Assembly: GCA_024998815.1 (NCBI GenBank)
Contig: JACEUQ010000003.1
Coordinates: 695,900-759,899, forward strand
Direction: 5' to 3'
Source: Opitutus sp.
GTDB lineage: Bacteria; Verrucomicrobiota; Verrucomicrobiia; Opitutales; Opitutaceae
DNA: 64,000 bases
The notes under the pieces were generated by a model that saw nothing but the letters and a program-made list of their open reading frames with translations, had not been told where the DNA came from and did not search any database. Shown here piece by piece: positions 48,698 to 60,932 of the stretch. How positions within the stretch are numbered: position 1 is the first letter of the stretch; each line of letters opens with the position of its first letter. The position numbers and the translations under genes are program-made.

Positions 48698-49172
48698 TTA
48701 TGGGGCCGTTCGTTGAATACGTCACGAATGAGTACTCAGTCTGGCCAAACATGCGAAAGAGGAGTTGGATAGGCCTTCAGGACGCAACCCTCTCGCGCCT
48801 TGCTGGAGATCACACAGTGATGCCGGACCGGACTGTCGAAAAAGGGGCGGGTAGAGTGCCAATAAAGGCCTTGATTCGTCCTAACCACACCGATGGCCCA
48901 ATTGCTACCGCTCGGAATCAGTGCCCGAATGCACCACTCTCGCTCGCGGCGTCTTGCTGAAGCTCACCACGGAGGGTGGTTTTCTTGCTGGCGCTCAAAA
49001 TCTCGGCCCGAACCGGGAAATCCACCTCGATTATGGGCCGAAAAACGGCTCTTAACGCTCAATTCGGCTGCCCGAAGCGCTCGTTTTACAATCCCAACGA
49101 CATGTCTGTCGTTTTGCGCAATTTTCCGACCAAGAGTCGGCGACTTGTTTCCGAAAACTAAGGTCAGTTTAA
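48698..49172. other. Non-coding or decayed DNA at island edge
   Basis: No convincing gene, RNA or repeat is seen here. Composition is lower in GC than in the sugar genes on the left. It lies between the XylR-like gene and the DUF3800 remnant and probably consists of decayed mobile DNA. Confidence 0.5.
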
Positions 49173-49412
49173 TGCTTCCAACTTGCCGGATTACAACTCG
49201 CCGACGCGGTCGCCTCCGGACTCTACGCTGCGGTGACTCCCAACCGCTTCGGCGACGTGGAAGACCGCTATGCCCGCCTGCTTCACCCCACCTTCCGCCG
49301 ACACAAAGGGGCGGTGCTCGGTTTCGGCCTCAAATTCTGGCCCGACGACCTCGCAGTCGTGAAAACCAAAAGCCCGCACTTGGCGGGCCTTTCGGACTGG
49401 ATTGGAAAATGA
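49173..49412 (+). pseudogene. C-terminal fragment of a DUF3800 protein
   Basis: The frame after a stop at 49,170 reads CFQLAGLQLADAVASGLYAA, then NRFGDVEDRYARLLHP and GAVLGFGLKFWP, ending PHLAGLSDWIGK. The QLADAVASGLY block and the FKFWP-type block are typical of the C-terminal half of DUF3800 (an RNase H-like family frequent in mobile and defence loci). The N-terminal catalytic part is missing, so this is a remnant. Confidence 0.6.
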
Positions 49413-49572
49413 TGCAGATCCCAGGTTCGAGATGCCACCCGTGCGGGCTGCCACCGTTGCCGGCGACCTCTACAAGTCCTGCGCTTATCTGCGTAGGCCA
49501 ACGAGCCGCCACCCCGGCCGCCTGTCAAACCAGGAGTCGTTTTACTGCCACTAACCACGCCATATCCCTTTC

Positions 49573-49587: not shown

Positions 49588-50403
49588 ATGAGCCACGAAA
49601 TCACCCCGTTTGAATCCATTCGCCGGACCAACCCGGCGGGCAACGAATTCTGGTCGAGCCGCGACTTCGCCAAAGTTCTCGGCTATGCCGACTATCGTAA
49701 TTTCCTGTCCGTCATAGAGGCTGCCCGCACCGCCTGCTTCAACAGCGGCCAGCGGGTGGATGACCATTTCGTTGAGGTCACCGAAATGGTCGAGATTGGC
49801 AGTGGTGCTCAACGCCGCCTGAAAACCGTGATGATGTCGCGGTATGCGTGTTACCTCGCCATCCAGAACGCCGACCCGTCCAAGGAAATAGTTGCCCAAG
49901 GCCAAACCTACTTCGCCATCCAGACCCGGCGGCAGGAGCTTTCCGACGAGCAAGTGGAAACGCAGCGCCGCCTCGCCATCCGTGCCGAGCTACGCACCCA
50001 CAACGGCCAGCTTGCCGACGCCGCCAAAGATGCCGGCGTAATCGCACCCCTGGACTATGCCATCTTCCAAAACCATGGTTACATGGGTCTCTATGGTGGA
50101 CTCGACGCGCAAGACACCCACCGCCGGAAAGGGCTAAAAAAGGGCGAGCAAATCCTCGACCACATGGGCAGCACCGAGCTGGCGGCCAACCTCTTCCGAG
50201 CCACCCAAGCCGAGGAGAAACTCCGCCGGGAAAAGATCACCGGGAAAGACAAAGCCAACCAAGCCCACCGCGAAGTGGGAGCAAAGGTTCGCCAGACGAT
50301 CAAAGAACTGGGTGGCACGATGCCGGAGGCGTTACCCCCGGCCGAAAGCATCAAGAAGCTGGAGACCCGGCACCGCAAAGCGCTCAAGCAATCGCCGAAG
50401 TAA
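49588..50403 (+). CDS. dinD: DNA damage-inducible protein D
   Basis: The 271-residue protein matches DinD over its whole length. The BRO-N-like N-terminus is visible in EFWSSRDFAKVLGYADYRNFL, the core in RYACYLAIQNADPSKEIVAQGQTYFAIQTR, and the C-terminal part in LGSTELAANLFRATQAEEKL-type sequence. E. coli DinD (274 aa) is SOS-induced and inhibits RecA strand exchange. No LexA box is recognisable upstream, so SOS control is not shown here. dinD genes are often found in mobile and defence islands, as here between a DUF3800 remnant and a Wadjet operon. Confidence 0.9.
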   Translation: MSHEITPFESIRRTNPAGNEFWSSRDFAKVLGYADYRNFLSVIEAARTACFNSGQRVDDHFVEVTEMVEIGSGAQRRLKTVMMSRYACYLAIQNADPSKEIVAQGQTYFAIQTRRQELSDEQVETQRRLAIRAELRTHNGQLADAAKDAGVIAPLDYAIFQNHGYMGLYGGLDAQDTHRRKGLKKGEQILDHMGSTELAANLFRATQAEEKLRREKITGKDKANQAHREVGAKVRQTIKELGGTMPEALPPAESIKKLETRHRKALKQSPK

Positions 50404-50847
50404 GAGCTCACTGCCAAAGACTGAAAACGCCGATTAGGTTTCCACAAGGTTGCTAAAACCGTTGGGTTCAGTCTCTTTTGTAAGCCGGTGACTGCACTTA
50501 CTGGAACAACCTAGCCCGTTAACCATTAATTATGTGCACGTTTTACGGCGACTTGGCCAAAGTGGCCCGTGTCGGTTCAAATCCGGCACCTCCACCACTT
50601 TTCTCCTCCGGAGAGCCGTTTTTTGTCCTTGGGCACTCAAAGTTAGCCTCAAGCTAACGTTTGATGTCTTTTGCGGCGGGGGGCATAATTCGACGCCGCA
50701 ACGTTCGCACTTCCCTTCGCCGTCATTTTACGGTGGCCGCCCAGTCGGACTCCGGTTTGGCTGCGGGCCGCGTGACCTCTTTTTGCTGCCTTAACCCCTT
50801 TACCTGCTGCGGCATCTCGCCGCACGCCTAGCCTGCGATTCCTGTCG
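50404..50847. other. Intergenic region between dinD and the Wadjet operon
   Basis: This 444-base stretch has no supported protein gene. It holds a tRNA/tmRNA 3'-end-like sequence at 50,571-50,597 and a small hairpin GTTAGC-ctcaa-GCTAAC at 50,642-50,658 that could lie in the Wadjet leader. The Wadjet promoter must be in the right part. Confidence 0.6.
50571..50597 (+). other. tRNA/tmRNA 3'-end-like remnant
   Basis: GTCGG-TTCAAAT-CCGGC forms a T-arm with a correct 7-base loop, followed by ACCTCC-A-CCA. The acceptor strand is one base too short and no matching 5' half lies within 100 bases upstream. It therefore looks like the duplicated or decayed end of a tRNA or tmRNA gene, the usual integration site of genomic islands. 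Confidence 0.35.
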
Positions 50848-52359
50848 ATGTCCGCGCCCGATTCGCCCCCCTTAACGTATTCGGTTTTCGCGCACCTCAA
50901 CGTCGAGAAAACCGGCCTCTACCGCGCGGTCCTGGGCGTCTTCGTCGCCGAACGCGCCCGTTTCGTTATCTCACTGCGCCCCTCCGAGATTTACGCTCTC
51001 CTTCCCTCTGCCACCCCGACCGAGATCGACCAGGTCCTCCCGCAACTGCGCGCTTGGGGCAATCTCGACGACTCACCGGATAGTGCCGAGGCCGCCACCA
51101 TCGAGGAGTTTTACCAGCGCCGTCGGCTCTACCAACTGAGCGCCGCCGGCGAGGCCGCCGAGCAAGCCCTGACGGTCTTCGGCGACTACCTGCTCCGCCC
51201 CGGCGAACTCCAGACCACCGCCCTGCACGACATTGCCGAGTTGCTCGACGCGCTTCTGCCGCGCCTCGCCGATAGCCCGCCCGACGACGCCAAGCTCCTT
51301 CAACTGCTCTCCAGTCTCGTCGCTCGTTTTGAGCAGCTCACCTCCCGCGCCCAAACCTTTATGCGCGGACTGCAGAGCACGGTTGAACTTCACGGCATCT
51401 CCGTCGAGGCCTTCCTCGCCTACAAGGAGCGGCTGATCGACTACCTTGAAAAATTCATCGGCGAACTGGTCGTCGCCACCAGCCGCATCGCCGAGGCCAT
51501 CCTGCGCTTGGAAGGCTGCGGGCTCGACCTCGCCTTCGTCGCCTGCGCGCGCCGCGAACTGGCCGACGCCCTTGCCCCAGCGCCCGAGGCCTTTGCCGAG
51601 GCCGAGACGCGTTGGCGCGACCGCTGGGCCGGACTGCGGCGCTGGTTCATCGCTGGCGAAACACCCTCCCAGGCCGAGCTGCTGCGCGCCCGCGCCCGCT
51701 CCGCCATCCCCGCCCTGCTCACCGCCGTCTCCCAGATCAACGACCGCCGCGCCTCCCGCGCCGACCGCGCGGCCGATTTCCTTTCCCTCGCCCGCTGGTT
51801 CGCCGAGGCCCCCGACGACGGCGCCTGCCACCGGCTCTGGCGCACCGCCTTCGCCCTCACTCCGGCCCGCCACCTGAGGATCAACTCCGAAACCCTAGCC
51901 GAACGCTCCGCCCGCGCAGAAACCCCGCGTACCAGCTGGCTGCAAGGCGCGCCCGTCTGGTTGTCGCCCCGGCTGCGCCAGAGTGGTCGCAACGCCCCGC
52001 GCGGCGTCGCCTCCATTACCATCGATCGCACCGCTGAAAAAGCCCACCTGCTCGCCCTCGCCCGCGAGCAAGCCGAGCAAATCGAGCGCGCCCGCCGCGT
52101 GCTCACCGCCGCCGGCCGCCGTCGTCTCGCCGACCTCGGCCCGTTCGGCGACGCCTCTTTTCGCCTGTTTCTCGACCTGCTTGGCCACGCCCTCAGCCAA
52201 CGCCCAGATCGCACCGGCCCGATCGATATCGAGTCCGCCGACGGCACCCTGCGCATTCGTCTCGAGCCAGTGCCTGCTGGCGAGACTGCTACCCTCGCCA
52301 CTGCCGACGGTGAGTTCACCGGCACCGATCACTGGATCACTATCGAGCCGGTTCATTAA
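50848..52359 (+). CDS. jetA: Wadjet type II subunit JetA (DUF2397 family, kleisin-like)
   Basis: The 503-residue protein matches the TIGR02677/DUF2397 family: N-terminal winged-helix part with FAHLNVEKTGLYRAVLGVF and RRRLYQLSAAGEAAE, a long helical middle including FMRGLQSTVELHGISVEAFLAYKERLIDYL, and a C-terminal winged-helix-like end. In Wadjet systems JetA is the kleisin that bridges JetC SMC heads and recruits JetB. It is the first gene of a four-gene operon, with 77 bases to jetB. The complex senses and cleaves small circular plasmid DNA after loop extrusion. Confidence 0.88.
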   Translation: MSAPDSPPLTYSVFAHLNVEKTGLYRAVLGVFVAERARFVISLRPSEIYALLPSATPTEIDQVLPQLRAWGNLDDSPDSAEAATIEEFYQRRRLYQLSAAGEAAEQALTVFGDYLLRPGELQTTALHDIAELLDALLPRLADSPPDDAKLLQLLSSLVARFEQLTSRAQTFMRGLQSTVELHGISVEAFLAYKERLIDYLEKFIGELVVATSRIAEAILRLEGCGLDLAFVACARRELADALAPAPEAFAEAETRWRDRWAGLRRWFIAGETPSQAELLRARARSAIPALLTAVSQINDRRASRADRAADFLSLARWFAEAPDDGACHRLWRTAFALTPARHLRINSETLAERSARAETPRTSWLQGAPVWLSPRLRQSGRNAPRGVASITIDRTAEKAHLLALAREQAEQIERARRVLTAAGRRRLADLGPFGDASFRLFLDLLGHALSQRPDRTGPIDIESADGTLRIRLEPVPAGETATLATADGEFTGTDHWITIEPVH

Positions 52360-52436
52360 CTGCCGCCCTGTATCCTCGCTCTGTCTACAGCCTCCGCCCT
52401 GCCGCACTTCGATCGCCGAACCTTCGCCTTGCCCAC

Positions 52437-53807
52437 GTGACCCCGCCTCCTTCTTCCGCCGTCCCGCCGCCCGCGCCACCGGCTGGGTTTAGCCCACCGT
52501 CCGCTGTCCCGGCCACGGCTCCAGCGGCGTTGCCAGGCCCCTCGCGACGCACCGCCCGCCGTGCCCGGCTGGCTCGGTTGCGAGAGGAGTCCGAACCGCT
52601 CGAAGCTGAGGAGCGCCGCACCGCACTGCGCGCCCTGTTGCAACGCCCGTTGCTCATCCCCGACGGCCCCACCGCCGAGGCGTTCACCTTGGTGCGCCGC
52701 CATCGCAAATGGCTCGCCGATTGGTTTGCCCACCACGTCGATTGGTCGCTGGTCGTCACCGCCGAAGCCGCCCGGTTGCGTAAGTTGCCAGCCACCACCA
52801 CCGACGCCACCCGCCCGGCTCTCGACCCGCGCAGCGAGGAGCCGTTTAACCGCATTCGTTACCTCCTCTTCTGCCTGGCCGTGTCCGTGCTCGAACGCGG
52901 CGACCGCCAGACCACCCTCGGCCGACTCGCCGAAAACATCGCCCTCGCGCTCGCCGCCGACCCGGCCTTCGCCGCTCACGGCGTGCTCTGGTCGCTCGAC
53001 GAGCCCGCCGGCCGCCGCGATTTCGTGCACACTCTGCGGCTGCTGGTCGCGCTCGGGGTTCTGCGCCGTATCCAGGGTGACGAGGAACAACTGCTGCGCG
53101 ACCGCAGTTCCGACGCCCTCTACAACATCAACCGTCCCGTCCTCGCGCTCCTGCTGGCCGTCCGCCGCAGTCCCTCGTTGGTCGCCGACGAAGGCTTCGA
53201 CGAACGTCTTGTCGCCCTTCTCGACCAGCCCCGCCCCGACACCCCCGACGCGCGCAACCGCGCCCTGCGCACCGGCCTCGCCGCCCGGCTGCTCGACGAT
53301 CCGGTGCTGTATTACGCGGGCCTCGACGAAGAGGCCCGCGCCTACCTCGACCGCCAGCGCCCCTTTTTGCTCGGTCCGCTCACCGAGGCCACCGGCCTGC
53401 ACGCCGAGGTTCGCGCCGAGGGCCTGGCCCTGGTCGATCTCGATGGCGATTGCTCCGATGCCGGCCTTCCCGAGGAAGGCACCGAGGGCCACCTCACGTT
53501 GCTCTTGGCCACTTGGCTCGCCGATCGTCTCCGCGCCGGGGATACCACTGCGCTCACCACCGAAACGCTTCGCCAGAAAACCGCCCGCCTCATCCGCCAG
53601 CACCGGCACCACTGGCGCAAAGAGGTCGCCCAACGCGGGGCCGAGGGCCCTCTGTGCGAGCTCGTACTCAATCGCCTCGCCGGCCTCGCCCTGATCGAAC
53701 GGGTAGGGGACAGCCTGCGCCCGCTGCCCGCGCTGGGCCGTTTCGCCCTGCGCGCCTCCGCCGAAAACGCCCCGGCAACCGACGACACCGCCGAACTTAA
53801 CTTTTAA
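52437..53807 (+). CDS. jetB: Wadjet type II subunit JetB (DUF2398 family, KITE-like)
   Basis: This 456-residue protein (GTG start) matches TIGR02678/DUF2398. A Pro/Ala-rich N-terminal tail of ~40 residues precedes the family core RTALRALLQRPLLIPDGPTA. The core continues with FTLVRRHRKWLADWFAHHVDW, FVHTLRLLVALGVLRRIQGDE and TARLIRQHRHHWRKEV. JetB is the tandem winged-helix (KITE) partner of the kleisin, like MukE. The N-terminal tail is unusual, and a start further downstream cannot be excluded, but no ATG fits. It ends two bases before jetC, suggesting coupled translation. Confidence 0.86.
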   Translation: MTPPPSSAVPPPAPPAGFSPPSAVPATAPAALPGPSRRTARRARLARLREESEPLEAEERRTALRALLQRPLLIPDGPTAEAFTLVRRHRKWLADWFAHHVDWSLVVTAEAARLRKLPATTTDATRPALDPRSEEPFNRIRYLLFCLAVSVLERGDRQTTLGRLAENIALALAADPAFAAHGVLWSLDEPAGRRDFVHTLRLLVALGVLRRIQGDEEQLLRDRSSDALYNINRPVLALLLAVRRSPSLVADEGFDERLVALLDQPRPDTPDARNRALRTGLAARLLDDPVLYYAGLDEEARAYLDRQRPFLLGPLTEATGLHAEVRAEGLALVDLDGDCSDAGLPEEGTEGHLTLLLATWLADRLRAGDTTALTTETLRQKTARLIRQHRHHWRKEVAQRGAEGPLCELVLNRLAGLALIERVGDSLRPLPALGRFALRASAENAPATDDTAELNF

Positions 53808-53809
53808 CC

Positions 53810-56800
53810 ATGCCCGCCGCCGCCCCTTCCGCCGTCCCCGCCATCGCTGACTCCTCCCCGCTGCCCGCACCGGCGCGAACCGATCGTTGGCAACCGCTGC
53901 GCAGCGGCGTGCTCAACCTCTACCGCTACGACTACGAGGAGTTTCATTACGCGGAGGGCCGCCTGCTGTTGCGTGGCAACAACGGCAGTGGCAAGTCCCG
54001 CATCCTCGCCCTGCAGCTCCCCTTCCTACTCGACGGCGAGGTCTCGCCCGCCCGCGTCGAGCCCGACGGCGACGCCGCCAAACGCATCGAGTGGAACCTG
54101 CTCATGGGCAAATACCCCGAGCGCACCGGCTACACCTGGATCGAGTTCGGCCGCCGCGACGCCGACGGCACCGCACACACCCTGACCCTGGGCTGCGGCC
54201 TGCGCGCCGTCGCCGGCCACACCGGCCTGCACAGCCGCTGGTTTTTCATCACCACCCAGCGCATCGGTCGCGACCTGTTTTTGCAGACGGCGCAACGCAC
54301 CCCGCTCGGCCGCGACCGCCTCACCGAGGCAATCGGCGACCACGGCCGCGTTTTCAAAGAAGCCAAGGACTACCGCGCGGCCGTCAACGACACCCTCTTC
54401 GGCCTCGGCCCCCGCTATGGCGCGCTCATCGAACTGCTGCTGCGCCTGCGCCGCCCCCAGCTCACGCGCAAACTCGACGAAAACGAGCTGCCCAACGCCC
54501 TCAGCGACGCCCTGCCCACACTTTCCGGCACCATCATCGAGGAGGTCGCCGAATCCTTCCGCAGCCTCCAGGCCGACAAGGACACCCTGCGCGCCTTCAC
54601 CGAGGCCCGCGCCGCCGTCGGCGTTTTCCTTCAGGACTACGCCACCTACGTCCGCATTGCGGTGCGCCGCCGGGCCGCCCAGGTGCGGACCACTCAGTCT
54701 GGCTACGAAAGCGCCCAACGCGCCGCCAAGGACGCCGCCGCTCGGCTCGAAGCCGCCAGTGCCGAGCTCGCCAGCCTCAGCCGTCTGCGTGCCGAACTCG
54801 ACACCCAACAGGCCGGCGCCGAGACCGCCGAGCGCACCTTAGCCGAAAGCCCCGAGATGCGCACCGCCGACGAAATTCGCCTGGCCAGCGAAGCCGCCGC
54901 TAAGGAGGCCGACGCGCTCGGGGTTGCCAGTGGCGACGAAGTTCGTGCCGCCAGCGCCGAGCAACTAGCCCGCTCGCGTCAACTCCAGGCCGAGGAAGCC
55001 GCCGCCGGTTTTAACGAAAACCTTGCCGCCAGCCTGCACGCCACCGCCAGCGCCGCTGCTGCCGCCGACCTCGCCGAGCCCAACCGCCTCCACCTCGGCC
55101 GCGCCGCCGAGACCGATGCCGCATCCCTGCCTTCCACCGCCGCCACCGCCGAGAAGCAACTCCACCGCGTCCTCGCCCAACGCGAACGCGCCCTCGGTAT
55201 TCTTCGCGTCCAGGAAAAATCCGCCGCTCAGTCGCTGGCCCAGCTCCACCTCGCCGACGCCGAGCTGCGCCGCGCCCAGGAACACGCCACTGCCGCCCGC
55301 GAGGCCGAGCACTCCGCCCGCGAAACCCTTGATGCCCGTGCCGCCGCCCTATTCGCGTCCTACTCCAGCTGGCGCGCCGCACTTCGCCACCTCCAACCCC
55401 CGCACGGCGAGACCCTGGCCGACACCTTTGCTGACTGGGTTGAAACCCGCGAGGGGCCCGGCCCGCTCCTGCGTGCGGCGGATGCCGCCAGCACCGCGAC
55501 CACCGCGCTCCTCGCCGCCCGTCAGGTCACCGTTGCCCGTACCGCCGCCGAACTCACCGCCGAGCTTGCCCAGATCGCCGCTGAAATCGACCGCCTAGAA
55601 AACGGCGACACTCCGCCGCCCCCGCCGCCGTCCACGCGCCGCGCCGAACGCACCGGACGTCCCGGCGCACCGCTCTGGCGGGTTTGCGATTTCCATCCCG
55701 CTTTGCCGCTCACCGAGCGCGCCGGGCTTGAAGCCGCGCTCCAAGCCTCCGGGCTGCTCGATGCCTGGGTGCTGCCCGACGGCCGCCTGCTCGCCGCCGA
55801 CGAAGACACCTACCTCGTCCATGCCGCCAGCGACGCCACCGGCCCGGCCCGCCACCTCGGGCAACTGCTCGTGCCCGCCATCGACACCGAGGACGCCGCC
55901 GCCGGTCAGCTCACCCCGGCGACTCTGGCCGGTTTGCTTGCCAACCTCGGCGGTGCCCCCGGCCAAGGTCCGCACTGGGTCGCCCCCGATGGCCGTTGGC
56001 AACTCGGCCCGCTCTCCGGACGCTGGACCAAGCCCGAGGCCGATTACCTGGGCGCGAGCACCCGTGCCGCCGCGCGTCGCCGTCAAATAGATACGCTGCG
56101 CGGCCGTCAGCTTGAGTTAACTGCCCACCTGGACCAAGCCCGCGAGGCCATCGAAGCACTGGTCGCCGACCAGGCAGCGGCCGCCGCCGAGTTTACCGCC
56201 GCGCCCTCCGAGGAACCGCTGCTGCGGGCCGGCTACGAACTGGAAACCGCCGCTCAGTCCGTGGCAAATTCACTTTATGCTGCTGAGCGCGCCGCCCAGC
56301 TCGCCTCCGCCCGGCGCATCGAGTGGGAAAATACCCAAGCGGCCCTCCACCGCGATGCGGCCGACCTGCATCTCGCCGCCTGGCTTGGCCGCCTCGACGA
56401 GCTCGTCGGCTTGACCCAGGCCTACGACAAAGCCCTCGCCGGCCTCTGGCCCACGCTGCGCCACGCCGCGACCCTTGAAGCACAGCTGGCCGCGTTGCGT
56501 GAACAGACCGCCACCGCCGGAGCCGAGGCCCACACCCGCCGCTCCCGCCGCGAGCAGACCGCCGCCCTCGCCGAAGCCGCCCGCCAGCGCTTCCTTACCT
56601 TGCAGGAGACCCATGGTGCCAGCGTCGCCGAGATTTTGGAAAAGCACCGCGCTGCCCGCGCCGAAGTGGTGCGCCTCAAGAACGAGATCCACGCCAACGA
56701 AAGCCAGCAGCGCACCCAGACCGCCGAGCAGTCTCGGGCCGAGGAAAACAAGTCCACCGCCGAGCAAAAACGCGCCGACCAAGAGGTCTTTCGCCGCACC

Positions 56801-58063
56801 GCCATCGCCCACCTCCAAGGACTCGCCGCTCAGCGTCTGTTCGCCGAGGCCGACCCCGCTTTCCGCGCCATTGAAGCAGGCGAGTGGAGTGTGGCCGAGG
56901 CGGTCGACATTGCCCGCCAGATCGAAACCCGCCTCGCCGACACGCCCGCCGACGACACCGCTTGGCAACAGCGGCAAGACCGCATCCACAGCCATATCCA
57001 AGAACTGCGCGACCAGCTCGTCACGCACGGCCACCAGCCCGAAACCCACCAAGTCGAAGACATTATTCTGGTGCGCTGTTTGTTTCAGGGAAAACCCCAC
57101 ACCATGACCGAGCTGCACGCCGCCTTCTCCGCCGAGCTGGCCGAGCGCGATCGCCTCCTCCAAGCCCGCGAGCGGGAGATCATTGAAAACCACCTGTTGG
57201 CGGAGGCAGCCGTGGAGTTGCAAAAACTCATCCGCGCGGCCGACGCCTGGCGCACCGACGCCAATGCCGAACTCGCCTCCCGACCCACCAGCACCGGCGT
57301 GCGTTTTCGCTTTCAATGGGAATCCGACACCGAGAGCCGTTTCCACGAAGTCCGGCCGATTCTCCTACGTAAAGGCGAACTGTGGACGCCGTCCGAACGC
57401 ACTGCGCTGGCCGGCTTCCTGCAAGGGCGAATCGCCGCCGAGCAGACGGCCGATGAATCCGGCTCCTGGCGCGACCATCTGGCCCGCGCCCTCGATTACC
57501 GACGCTGGCACCGCTTCGTGATCGAGCGCCAGCAAGAAGGCCACTGGCGCCGCCTCGATAAAACCACCTATGGCACGGGCTCCGGCGGCGAAAAGGCCCT
57601 CGCGCTCACCCTGCCGCGCTTTGCCGCCGCTGCCGCGCATTACCGTGGAGCCGCGCCCACCGCGCCCCGCCTGGTCATGCTCGACGAGGCCTTCGCCGGC
57701 ATCGACCCGACGATGCGCGCCCAGTGCCTCGGCGTACTCACCCAATTCGACCTCGATATCGTCATGACCAGCGAACTCGAGTGGGGCTGCTATGCCACCG
57801 TGCCCGCGCTGGCCATTTACCACCTCACCACGCTGCCCGGCCTCGACGCGGTTGCCGCCACCCGCTGGCTGTGGAACGGACGCGAAAAGAAACAACGCGA
57901 CCTTCCGCTTTCGCCCGCCGCGCCACCAATCAGTCTTGCATCGAGTGACGGCGCGCAGGTGGCGGCGGCCACCTCCAACGCTGACGACGACGGCACCGCC
58001 CACGGGCCAACCGGCGCGCCCGCCGACAACGAGGAAGCTCCGCCGGAACTTCCTCTCGGTTAA
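53810..58063 (+). CDS. jetC: Wadjet type II SMC ATPase JetC (TIGR02680, MukB-like)
   Basis: At 1,417 residues it has the SMC plan. The Walker A is RGNNGSGKS (P-loop 56-63) in the N-terminal head, followed by long Ala/Glu-rich coiled coils (about 270-560 and 700-1,200) around a hinge region near 600-700. The signature-like TGSGGEKALAL (Gly1257-Leu1265) and Walker B LVMLDEAFAGIDP with Glu1293 form the C-terminal head. This is TIGR02680, the SMC protein of type II Wadjet, which extrudes loops on circular plasmids. The C-terminal ~80 residues are a low-complexity Ala/Pro/acidic tail not needed by the fold. The coding strand is extremely rich in GCC, CTC and CGC. Confidence 0.92.
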   Translation: MPAAAPSAVPAIADSSPLPAPARTDRWQPLRSGVLNLYRYDYEEFHYAEGRLLLRGNNGSGKSRILALQLPFLLDGEVSPARVEPDGDAAKRIEWNLLMGKYPERTGYTWIEFGRRDADGTAHTLTLGCGLRAVAGHTGLHSRWFFITTQRIGRDLFLQTAQRTPLGRDRLTEAIGDHGRVFKEAKDYRAAVNDTLFGLGPRYGALIELLLRLRRPQLTRKLDENELPNALSDALPTLSGTIIEEVAESFRSLQADKDTLRAFTEARAAVGVFLQDYATYVRIAVRRRAAQVRTTQSGYESAQRAAKDAAARLEAASAELASLSRLRAELDTQQAGAETAERTLAESPEMRTADEIRLASEAAAKEADALGVASGDEVRAASAEQLARSRQLQAEEAAAGFNENLAASLHATASAAAAADLAEPNRLHLGRAAETDAASLPSTAATAEKQLHRVLAQRERALGILRVQEKSAAQSLAQLHLADAELRRAQEHATAAREAEHSARETLDARAAALFASYSSWRAALRHLQPPHGETLADTFADWVETREGPGPLLRAADAASTATTALLAARQVTVARTAAELTAELAQIAAEIDRLENGDTPPPPPPSTRRAERTGRPGAPLWRVCDFHPALPLTERAGLEAALQASGLLDAWVLPDGRLLAADEDTYLVHAASDATGPARHLGQLLVPAIDTEDAAAGQLTPATLAGLLANLGGAPGQGPHWVAPDGRWQLGPLSGRWTKPEADYLGASTRAAARRRQIDTLRGRQLELTAHLDQAREAIEALVADQAAAAAEFTAAPSEEPLLRAGYELETAAQSVANSLYAAERAAQLASARRIEWENTQAALHRDAADLHLAAWLGRLDELVGLTQAYDKALAGLWPTLRHAATLEAQLAALREQTATAGAEAHTRRSRREQTAALAEAARQRFLTLQETHGASVAEILEKHRAARAEVVRLKNEIHANESQQRTQTAEQSRAEENKSTAEQKRADQEVFRRTAIAHLQGLAAQRLFAEADPAFRAIEAGEWSVAEAVDIARQIETRLADTPADDTAWQQRQDRIHSHIQELRDQLVTHGHQPETHQVEDIILVRCLFQGKPHTMTELHAAFSAELAERDRLLQAREREIIENHLLAEAAVELQKLIRAADAWRTDANAELASRPTSTGVRFRFQWESDTESRFHEVRPILLRKGELWTPSERTALAGFLQGRIAAEQTADESGSWRDHLARALDYRRWHRFVIERQQEGHWRRLDKTTYGTGSGGEKALALTLPRFAAAAAHYRGAAPTAPRLVMLDEAFAGIDPTMRAQCLGVLTQFDLDIVMTSELEWGCYATVPALAIYHLTTLPGLDAVAATRWLWNGREKKQRDLPLSPAAPPISLASSDGAQVAAATSNADDDGTAHGPTGAPADNEEAPPELPLG

Positions 58064-58068
58064 CCGTC

Positions 58069-59382
58069 ATGTCTGCCCCGTCGCCCACGCCTACGAATTC
58101 GCCCAAGCCCGCGCCCACGAATTTGCCCAAGCCCGCGCCTACGCCGGTTGATCTACCCCGGTTGCGCAGCACCCTCGGCCAACCCGAGTTGGGTCGGTTG
58201 GTGGATGCGCTCCAGCGCCGGCTCGAATTGGGCCGTCCGCTGGAGGGCCGCCTCACCCTCGTTGATGCCACGGCGAGCGAACGCACCGCCTTCGACGCCC
58301 TGCTCGGCCGCGTGAGCCGCCCGGGCGCTTCGCTCGGGATCGACCTCGGCGAACTCGTCGAGGTGCTCCACGACGCTGGCATTTGCGCCGATCTTACCAC
58401 GGCGGTGCACGCCCTGCGCGGCCCGGTGGACGATCGCCGCGCCCTGGCCGAGCGCCACCAAGCGGTGTGGACCGCGGTGTTGGGCACCGCCACCGCTCGT
58501 TTCGCCGCCTGGCCGCCCTTGCAAAACTGGCTGGGTGAACTCGCCGCCAGCGGACTGCTCAAACGCCTCTGCGACGATCAACCAGCGTGTGCCGCCTCGT
58601 TAGTTGACGAGCTTGCCCGCCTCGCCACCGCGCTGCCCGTGCACGCCGAGCCGCTGGCGACACTGGCTGCGCGACTTTTTGGTGATGCGCACGCCCTCGA
58701 TCCCGGCACGCCCCGCGCCACGCTGGCCCTGCGCCTCGCCGCTCGTCTGGGAGGCGTGGAGTTGGACGACGATGCCGAAGGTCGCCGCACCGCCTGGGCC
58801 TCGGTGGGCGTGCTTTGTGACGAGCTCAGCACGCCGGTGTTGGTGTTTAATTTGCCCGCGCAAGCCGACACCCCCTTGACCCGCCTGCTGGCGACGGCGC
58901 GTCGGGATGGCGAACCGCTCCACCTCTCGTTGCGTCACCTCCTAGTCTGGCCGCTGGCGGGTGATCCGGGGTTGGCAGGGCGGACGGTTTTTGTGTGCGA
59001 AAACCCGACCATCGTGGCGCTGGCGGTGCGCCGGCTGGGAGTGCGGTGTGCGCCGTTGGTGTGCGTGAACGGGCAGTTTGCCACCCCGGCAAAGGTCCTG
59101 CTGCGCCAACTCGCCGCCGCCGGTGCCCGGCTACGTTACCATGGCGATTTCGATTTGGGCGGGCTGACGATTGCCCGCCGCGTGCTGGCCGAGCCCGGTG
59201 CGCTGCCCTGGCGGATGAGCCCGGCGGATTACCTGTCCGCGCCCAAGGGGAAAAAGCTGGCGACGCGCGAAGGGTTAACCAGCCCGTGGTGTCCGGAGTT
59301 GGCCGAGGTGATGAAGCAAAACGGCAACTCGGTGCACGAGGAAGCGGTGGTTGAGTCGCTGCTCGCCGATCTGGCGGGGTAG
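58069..59382 (+). CDS. jetD: Wadjet type II nuclease JetD (DUF2399, Toprim)
   Basis: The 437-residue protein matches TIGR02679/DUF2399. After a Pro-rich start comes a helical arm region and, in the C-terminal half, the Toprim catalytic core with Glu311 in FVCENPTIVALAV and Asp360-Phe-Asp362 in YHGDFDLGGLTIARR. JetD is the nuclease that cuts plasmid DNA once the SMC complex has measured a small circle. The N-terminus has a tandem repeat (NSPKPAPTNLPKPAPTPVDLP) encoded by 24-base direct repeats at 58,087-58,147. It starts 5 bases after jetC; both catalytic acidic sites are intact, so the system should be active. Confidence 0.9.
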   Translation: MSAPSPTPTNSPKPAPTNLPKPAPTPVDLPRLRSTLGQPELGRLVDALQRRLELGRPLEGRLTLVDATASERTAFDALLGRVSRPGASLGIDLGELVEVLHDAGICADLTTAVHALRGPVDDRRALAERHQAVWTAVLGTATARFAAWPPLQNWLGELAASGLLKRLCDDQPACAASLVDELARLATALPVHAEPLATLAARLFGDAHALDPGTPRATLALRLAARLGGVELDDDAEGRRTAWASVGVLCDELSTPVLVFNLPAQADTPLTRLLATARRDGEPLHLSLRHLLVWPLAGDPGLAGRTVFVCENPTIVALAVRRLGVRCAPLVCVNGQFATPAKVLLRQLAAAGARLRYHGDFDLGGLTIARRVLAEPGALPWRMSPADYLSAPKGKKLATREGLTSPWCPELAEVMKQNGNSVHEEAVVESLLADLAG

Positions 59383-59501
59383 TCCACACCCTGCCGAAGC
59401 GAGCGCCCGCCCCCTGTTCTCGCGCTTGCACGCCGGCTATTAAGGCGAACACCGGTTCGCCTGCTGCCCGCCCGCTCCGGCACAAGTCTGTCGCAACCGC
59501 A

Positions 59502-59548
59502 AAAAAAGCGCCGGCACGCCGAGGTGTTCGGCGTGCCGGCGCTTTTTT
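59502..59548. terminator. Strong bidirectional terminator after jetD
   Basis: A perfect 21-bp stem (AAAAAAGCGCCGGCACGCCGA and its complement) with a 5-base loop is A-rich on the left and T-rich on the right. It can stop both the Wadjet transcript and the convergent SurA-like transcript. Confidence 0.92.
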
Positions 59549-59561
59549 GGCGGTCTCCCGC

Positions 59562-60575
59562 TCAGTAGATTTTAACGTACGCGTTGCGGCGCAGGCGCTC
59601 CAGCCAGCGGGCTTCGGATTCACGCGCAATTTGATTACCAAGGATGCGCTCGATCTGCTCGCGCACTTCAGCCAGGGGCTGCAAGCCGGCAAATTTGCGG
59701 TCTTCCACGTACAGCAGGTAAACGGCCTCGGGGGCGAGAATCGGGTCGGTGGCCTGCCCTTTGGTTAACTCAAAGAGGGGCTTGCTGAACTCGGCCTTGA
59801 GGTCGGCGCGGGGCTGCCAACCCCAGTCGCCGCCCTTGGTGCGTTTGGCGTCTTGGCTGAGCTCGCGGGCCAGGTCCTCGAACTTCTCGCCGGCCTTGAA
59901 GCGGTCGACGATTTTTTGCGCGCGGGCGAGCAGGGTTTCGTCGGTTTCGCCCGTCTGGCGGGTCAGTGAGAGCAGGCGCATGTGAACCTGGTCCTCTTGC
60001 TGAAAGCGGTCCTTGTTTTCGTTGTAGAAGGACTCGACGCGGGCGGGGCTGACAATGTTGCTGCTCTTGCGCTGCTGGCTGCGCATGTAGTCGTAGATCA
60101 TGTCGTCTTCGACCTTCCTGCGGTAGTCGCGGTAGGTCATGCCGGTGTTGCGCAGGTAGGCGAGGAACTTGGTCCGGTCGCTCTCGAAACGGCGGATCTG
60201 CTCCTCGGCGATGGCGTTGTTAATGTAACTGGCCGGGACCTTGCGCTTATCGTCCTTCTTGAAGTCCTTCACGATGAGGATGCGGTCGATCATCTCCTGG
60301 ATGATTTCGTCCTGAAGGGATTCGAGCTTTTCGTTGAACTCCTTCTCGTTGCGAGCGGAGCGCTGCAGGGCGGGCACGCGCGGGCCGATTTCGCGGCGCA
60401 GGTCGTCGACGGTGATCACCTTGTCCTCGGCGACCGCGACAACGCCGTTGGCGAAGCGTTGGGAGAGGTTGTCGGTGTGTACTGGAGCCATTTGCGGTGC
60501 AAGTGGTTGTGCCAATACGGCAAGCGGGGTGAGGGCGGCAAGGGTGGCGAGCGTACAGAGCCGGCGGATCATCAT
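59562..60575 (-). CDS. SurA-like periplasmic peptidyl-prolyl isomerase
   Basis: The start MMIRRLCTLATLAALTPLAVLAQ gives a signal peptide and 337 residues. An N-terminal SurA-type chaperone domain (about 40-190) begins FANGVVAVAEDKVITVDDLRREIG, followed by a parvulin rotamase domain (about 190-290) with VHMRLLSLTRQ, GEKFEDLARELSQD, TKGGDWGWQPRADL and APEAVYLLYVEDRK. It would help fold outer-membrane proteins. It is one of the housekeeping genes beyond the Wadjet operon and converges on its terminator. Confidence 0.87.
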   Translation of the reverse strand: MMIRRLCTLATLAALTPLAVLAQPLAPQMAPVHTDNLSQRFANGVVAVAEDKVITVDDLRREIGPRVPALQRSARNEKEFNEKLESLQDEIIQEMIDRILIVKDFKKDDKRKVPASYINNAIAEEQIRRFESDRTKFLAYLRNTGMTYRDYRRKVEDDMIYDYMRSQQRKSSNIVSPARVESFYNENKDRFQQEDQVHMRLLSLTRQTGETDETLLARAQKIVDRFKAGEKFEDLARELSQDAKRTKGGDWGWQPRADLKAEFSKPLFELTKGQATDPILAPEAVYLLYVEDRKFAGLQPLAEVREQIERILGNQIARESEARWLERLRRNAYVKIY

Positions 60576-60599
60576 GGAATGGGCGGATTGGGCAAACAC

Positions 60600-60932
60600 G
60601 GAGGGAATACTGGAGTTAACCTAGGTGGGCGAACAGGGCGGTCAACCGTGGAAACCGCGTAGCACAACAGTCGGGGCGTTGCTCAACTTACACCCTTGGA
60701 GTGTTGGGGTGAAACGGGTGCGGCGTAGGCGGGCGACGGTGGGGTTGCCCCGGCCAAACCAATTCGTGTTCGAGATGAGCTTAACGAGAGCGATTCCTCG
60801 GGGCGCGACTACCTTGAGATAAACACCCTGAGCTCACGCTCAAGGCCACGTGGAGTTTACTCGCGAAGCGTGTGGCCTTGAGCGTGAGCTTGTTTACCCA
60901 CCGAAACTATCGGCGAACTGAGTTAAAGCGCG
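60600..60932. other. Intergenic region with long hairpin
   Basis: No gene is seen in these 333 bases. The right part holds a hairpin with a perfect 19-bp stem (60,831-60,849 with 60,872-60,890) extended by TAAACA/TGTTTA after a 5-base bulge. The left part is the SurA-like gene upstream region. Confidence 0.55.
60820..60896. terminator. Long hairpin downstream of HDOD genes
   Basis: The 19-bp perfect stem AGCTCACGCTCAAGGCCAC lies about 40 bases after the HDOD stop codon on the minus strand. It may terminate or protect that transcript, or be a REP-type element. Confidence 0.45.

Follow-up and report, generated by a model that had tools for sequence, protein, structure and literature searches.

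A complete type II Wadjet operon beside an ssrA-derived boundary in an Opitutus genome

The window analysed here, i.e. a stretch of 64,000 nucleotides (C3:695900-759899) from a nearly complete Opitutus sp. genome (4.24 Mb, three contigs), carries at positions 50848-59382 a type II Wadjet system made up of four plus-strand ORFs, which encode JetA, JetB, JetC and JetD. We are highly confident that this locus is a complete, probably functional and horizontally acquired type II Wadjet operon, in which JetABC would lead to plasmid cutting by JetD, and that the dinD gene beside it is an independent neighbour. The locus is another example of a known system. It adds a well-formed operon from a Verrucomicrobia-type genome, a useful addition given that the type II form of Wadjet has been studied less.

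Identification of the Wadjet operon

That the operon is complete, as claimed in the initial annotation, is borne out by its gene content and order, by family membership according to Pfam, NCBIfam and PADLOC, by the intact active-site residues and by the predicted fold of JetD. The genes and their key motifs are as follows:

50848-52359, plus strand: jetA (type II), 503 aa, kleisin-like subunit (DUF2397/TIGR02677, PADLOC JetA2, alignment)
52437-53807, plus strand: jetB (type II), KITE-like subunit (DUF2398/TIGR02678, PADLOC JetB2)
53810-58063, plus strand: jetC (type II), 1417 aa, SMC ATPase (TIGR02680, PADLOC JetC2, JetC of PDB 9qe0)
53975-53998, plus strand: JetC Walker A, GNNGSGKS, residues 56-63 (alignment)
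57581-57592, plus strand: JetC ABC signature, SGGE, residues 1258-1261 (intact in the window JetC)
57683-57688, plus strand: JetC Walker B Asp-Glu, D1292 and E1293 (alignment)
58069-59382, plus strand: jetD (type II), 437 aa, Toprim nuclease (DUF3323 and DUF2399/TIGR02679, PADLOC JetD2, predicted fold)
58999-59001, plus strand: JetD Toprim Glu, E311
59146-59154, plus strand: JetD Toprim DxD, D360 and D362

All four type II families stand side by side in the canonical A-B-C-D order on a single strand. The tight spacing around jetC noted earlier was found again, with 2 bases on the jetB side and 5 bases on the jetD side. JetB is 456 aa long when read from a putative GTG start at 52437, and its family homology begins only near residue 49.

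The four genes had been read from the sequence as the TIGR02677-TIGR02678-TIGR02680-TIGR02679 set. The NCBIfam HMM search confirmed this with scores far above the cut-offs: 430 bits versus 166 for JetA (TIGR02677), 290 versus 125 for JetB (TIGR02678), 1042 versus 463 for JetC (TIGR02680) and 308 versus 196 for JetD (TIGR02679). Pfam matched DUF2397, DUF2398, SbcC_Walker_B and DUF3323 with DUF2399 across the operon, and PADLOC matches were limited to the JetA2, JetB2, JetC2 and JetD2 models, which assigns the system to type II and not to type I or III. The thresholds of all three collections were exceeded widely by each of the Jet proteins.

Residue conservation was judged from alignments of the window proteins with five other systems (six in total). 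The Walker A and Walker B motifs of JetC and residues E311, D360 and D362 of JetD were already reported as intact; the key residues of these motifs and the three JetD residues are invariant in all six. JetD was modelled with AlphaFold (mean pLDDT 80), and the top two PDB matches of the model were archaeal Topo VI-A (1d3y) and the Wadjet nuclease of C. glutamicum (8b7f), with a probability of 1.00 and low global TM-scores.

Predicted mode of action

The JetABC complex of Wadjet systems acts by extruding DNA; after extrusion is completed, small circles are cut by JetD (PMC10586767). Mechanistic work has mostly been done on type I, and according to the same review types II and III are still to be characterised. 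For the window operon we infer loop extrusion, size sensing, cleavage and the anti-plasmid effect by carrying them over mostly from the type I studies. JetA (kleisin), JetB (KITE) and JetC (SMC) would form an ATP-driven loop-extruding complex; full extrusion of a small circular DNA would activate the Toprim nuclease JetD, and the plasmid would be cut. The most likely role of the operon would be the cutting of invading circular plasmids.

Comparison with known systems and distribution

The window operon shares protein families, gene order and catalytic residues with other type II Wadjet systems, and does not differ from them in any substantive respect. The nearest JetC copies, both at 62% identity, come from G325, a genome of the same family, and from L090, an Opitutus bin. 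In the window, jetB as called is separated from jetA by a 77-bp gap, whereas in the nearest relative the two genes overlap.

Chains of PDB 9qe0/9qe1 (JetABC) were the sole solved structures matched by profile for JetC (E 9e-139), JetA (1.5e-46) and JetB (6.6e-13). They are distant relatives, and no JetD chain of the window kind was matched by sequence. The four-part logic of the operon is common to the type I Wadjet, or MksBEFG, systems of E. coli, P. aeruginosa and C. glutamicum, and the JetD model has a fold resembling those of Topo VI-A and of 8b7f, the nuclease of C. glutamicum. However, the type I protein families differ by sequence from those of the window, and no PADLOC type I model was matched.

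Of the 384 genomes of the class, 7 have JetA, and among 13 congeners it occurs in one. At least 80 further type II loci, from several phyla, came to light when 84,980 species genomes were scanned; the neighbourhood comparisons below are based on 86 other type II Wadjet loci among the matches listed. The A-B-C-D order is kept in 76 of these 86, and the remaining ten are without at least one gene in the stretch examined. In the JetA tree the window protein groups with copies from Opitutaceae and other Verrucomicrobia, beside two proteobacterial bins. No conserved fifth gene beside Wadjet was evident among the listed loci; gene clusters recurring near many of them resembled ORFs antisense to the GC-rich jet genes. 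At another type II locus (L060, G127:C2:11208-14820) jetA is split, perhaps by an insertion, with about 2 kb between its two pieces.

Boundaries of the operon and evidence for import

The following features flank the operon:

49158-49397, plus strand: C-terminal remnant of a DUF3800 gene, 80 aa (tblastn; parent protein PF12686)
49408-49493, minus strand: DUF3800-VII RNA (RF02967), full length (Rfam covariance model)
49588-50403, plus strand: dinD, complete, 271 aa, BRO-N and DinD C-terminal part, not part of Wadjet (NF008573, PADLOC)
50574-50706, plus strand: copy of the ssrA (tmRNA) 3' end with about 110 bp of flank, an integration-type boundary between dinD and jetA (direct repeat)
59496-59554, no strand assigned: bidirectional terminator-like hairpin between jetD and surA, inside the surA segment
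59562-60599, minus strand: SurA/PpiC-type peptidyl-prolyl isomerase, second copy (95%) on contig C2

The initial annotation had placed a tRNA-like scrap on one side of the operon. The feature itself is real, but its identity as a tRNA is wrong: no full tRNA matched it within 2 mismatches in its own genome or in 36 relatives, and it is instead the 3' end of a tmRNA gene. An intact ssrA lies upstream at C3:675005-675356, in the same orientation and 71,141 bp away from the copy. The direct repeat formed by the two ssrA ends covers 136 columns with 83% identity and extends past the CCA by about 110 bp; two copies and no third were found. The distal boundary carries the ssrA 3'-end repeat in the same orientation, as would be the case had an element inserted into the tmRNA gene. 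The tmRNA locus is known as a hotspot for the integration of elements that carry defence systems (PMC10121019).

Positions 1-48600 of the window, which fall within the 71-kb segment from ssrA to its copy, form a large carbohydrate-utilisation region with GH1, GH52, GH130, trehalase-like and melibiase-like genes, an FGGY kinase, and LacI and AraC regulators.

On the right-hand side, a perfect 21-bp terminator had been counted among the marks of a separate imported unit. The hairpin exists, with 27-nt arms that are 96% complementary and hold the 21-bp perfect core. However, the DNA common to both surA copies and to a congener (G394) stops at 59472-59482, and as the hairpin lies within this shared segment, the terminator belongs to surA and not to the Wadjet operon. 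The import therefore ends between jetD and about 59472. As to surA itself, the two copies share 95% protein identity in unrelated surroundings (window 59472-60625 and C2:863886-864920, L082), and the one on C2 adjoins a DDE transposase.

The earlier description of the operon as a separate imported unit agrees with its patchy presence, with a GC content of 0.69 versus 0.63 for the window, with the tmRNA-type boundary on the left and with the breakpoint near 59472 on the right. Patchiness, raised GC and the two boundaries together suggest that the Wadjet operon was acquired horizontally.

Alternative interpretations of the locus

The means of arrival might be a mobile element. The Wadjet operon could be the cargo of an ssrA-associated element, Tn7-like or other, with the repeat before jetA being the end of this second, decayed element and not just the end of the 71-kb segment; we consider this possible, although rather doubtful. 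A Tn7-like TniA/TniB/TniQ module is indeed present beside the ssrA target site: TniQ, TniB, an ISL3 insertion and a TniA-type transposase follow directly downstream of the intact gene (C3:675005-682041, L222). The scrap and the intact ssrA are alike for about 110 bp past the CCA, and this likeness is absent from nine congeners, as expected if both repeats are element ends. In a genome of the same family, a type II jetA is preceded, about 3 kb upstream, by homologues of TniA/TniB/TniQ (L056, G093:C1, 16351-19505), and Wadjet is known to be carried by Tn7-like transposons (PMC8649781). On the other hand, such a module was found at only this one of the 86 other listed loci. A fuzzy search of 132 kb found no terminal inverted repeats or target-site duplication enclosing the operon, there is no third repeat copy to mark a right end, and no tyrosine integrase occurred among the subset of ORFs scanned. 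No empty site was recovered through ssrA, whose flanks are unrelated in nine congeners, or through surA or GH130 synteny, for which the relatives are too rearranged. The more specific proposal that Wadjet is cargo of Tn7-like elements that target tmRNA and are arrayed in tandem, in which the repeat before jetA would end a second, decayed ssrA-homing (TniQ-type) element, seems to us unlikely; a tmRNA target site goes unmentioned in the one survey of Tn7-like cargo consulted (PMC8649781).

Whatever the vehicle, the horizontally acquired operon has dinD as its immediate neighbour, as the initial annotation had stated. The gene is complete, and its product matches NF008573 at 396 bits versus a cut-off of 242. 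DinD acts on RecA, and joint action with Wadjet had been held worth considering. In such a partnership Wadjet would cut the plasmid and DinD, via RecA, would block repair of the cuts. The adjacency of dinD and jetA on the same strand, 444 bp apart, speaks for such a partnership, as does the listing of intact DinD on its own as defence candidate PDC-S13 by PADLOC. However, an HMM built from 31 DinD sequences, which recovers the window copy at 8.8e-131, found no dinD in the 1.1 Mb of sequence flanking the 86 other listed type II Wadjet loci, 73 of which had 1.5 kb or more of upstream sequence, and this makes a true dinD-Wadjet pairing rate above about 3.5% unlikely. Conversely, Jet genes were found at none of 33 other dinD loci (flanks up to about 10 kb), while type I restriction genes stood beside 11 of them, so that in this class dinD tends toward type I restriction genes and not toward Wadjet. 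A literature search gave no paper naming DinD together with Wadjet. Moreover, the tmRNA-derived repeat separates the two: dinD, the DUF3800 remnant and the DUF3800-VII RNA lie on the ssrA side of the boundary and Wadjet on the other, which points to probably separate arrivals. The proposal did not withstand this survey, and we hold joint action to be extremely improbable. DinD is an independent, chance neighbour among debris across the ssrA-derived boundary. The tempting hypothesis of a DinD-Wadjet pair is thereby removed, and the case illustrates how two independent imports can pass for one locus owing to an integration scar. The same debris, i.e. the truncated DUF3800 gene and the ssrA fragment, might suggest that the operon looks intact and yet is silent or decaying, and directly upstream there is no strong promoter but one weak sigma-70-like site at 50661-50689. 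Against this, the four reading frames are all uninterrupted and of full length, their active sites are conserved, and the coding GC3 (about 0.80) resembles that of neighbouring housekeeping genes such as surA and recF; we regard silence or decay as very unlikely.

DUF3800 remnant and DUF3800-VII RNA

The DUF3800 remnant mentioned in the initial annotation proved to be real, although it is missed by Pfam alone: tblastn aligned the last 80 codons at 59% identity (E 8e-31). The Rfam search added a feature absent from that annotation, a DUF3800-VII RNA scoring 64.5 bits versus a gathering score of 36.2, with one C lost in a stretch retained by the aligned relatives. The RNA and the remnant are convergent. 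The match is full length, and its placement, convergent with the end of a DUF3800 gene, is also seen in relatives; the window differs from them in that the gene is cut to its last 80 codons. A DUF3800 gene accompanies the RNA in the usual arrangement at 9 of 13 other RNA loci, and at the remaining 4 of the 13 none was found by tblastn, which indicates that the RNA may outlive its gene.

The RNA was not found near Wadjet at any of the 86 other listed loci. It lies side by side with dinD in the window and at no other locus examined. At the genome level, dinD and the DUF3800-VII RNA co-occur in 7 of the 14 RNA-bearing genomes of the class, where about 1 would be expected (naive p 3e-5, ignoring kinship).
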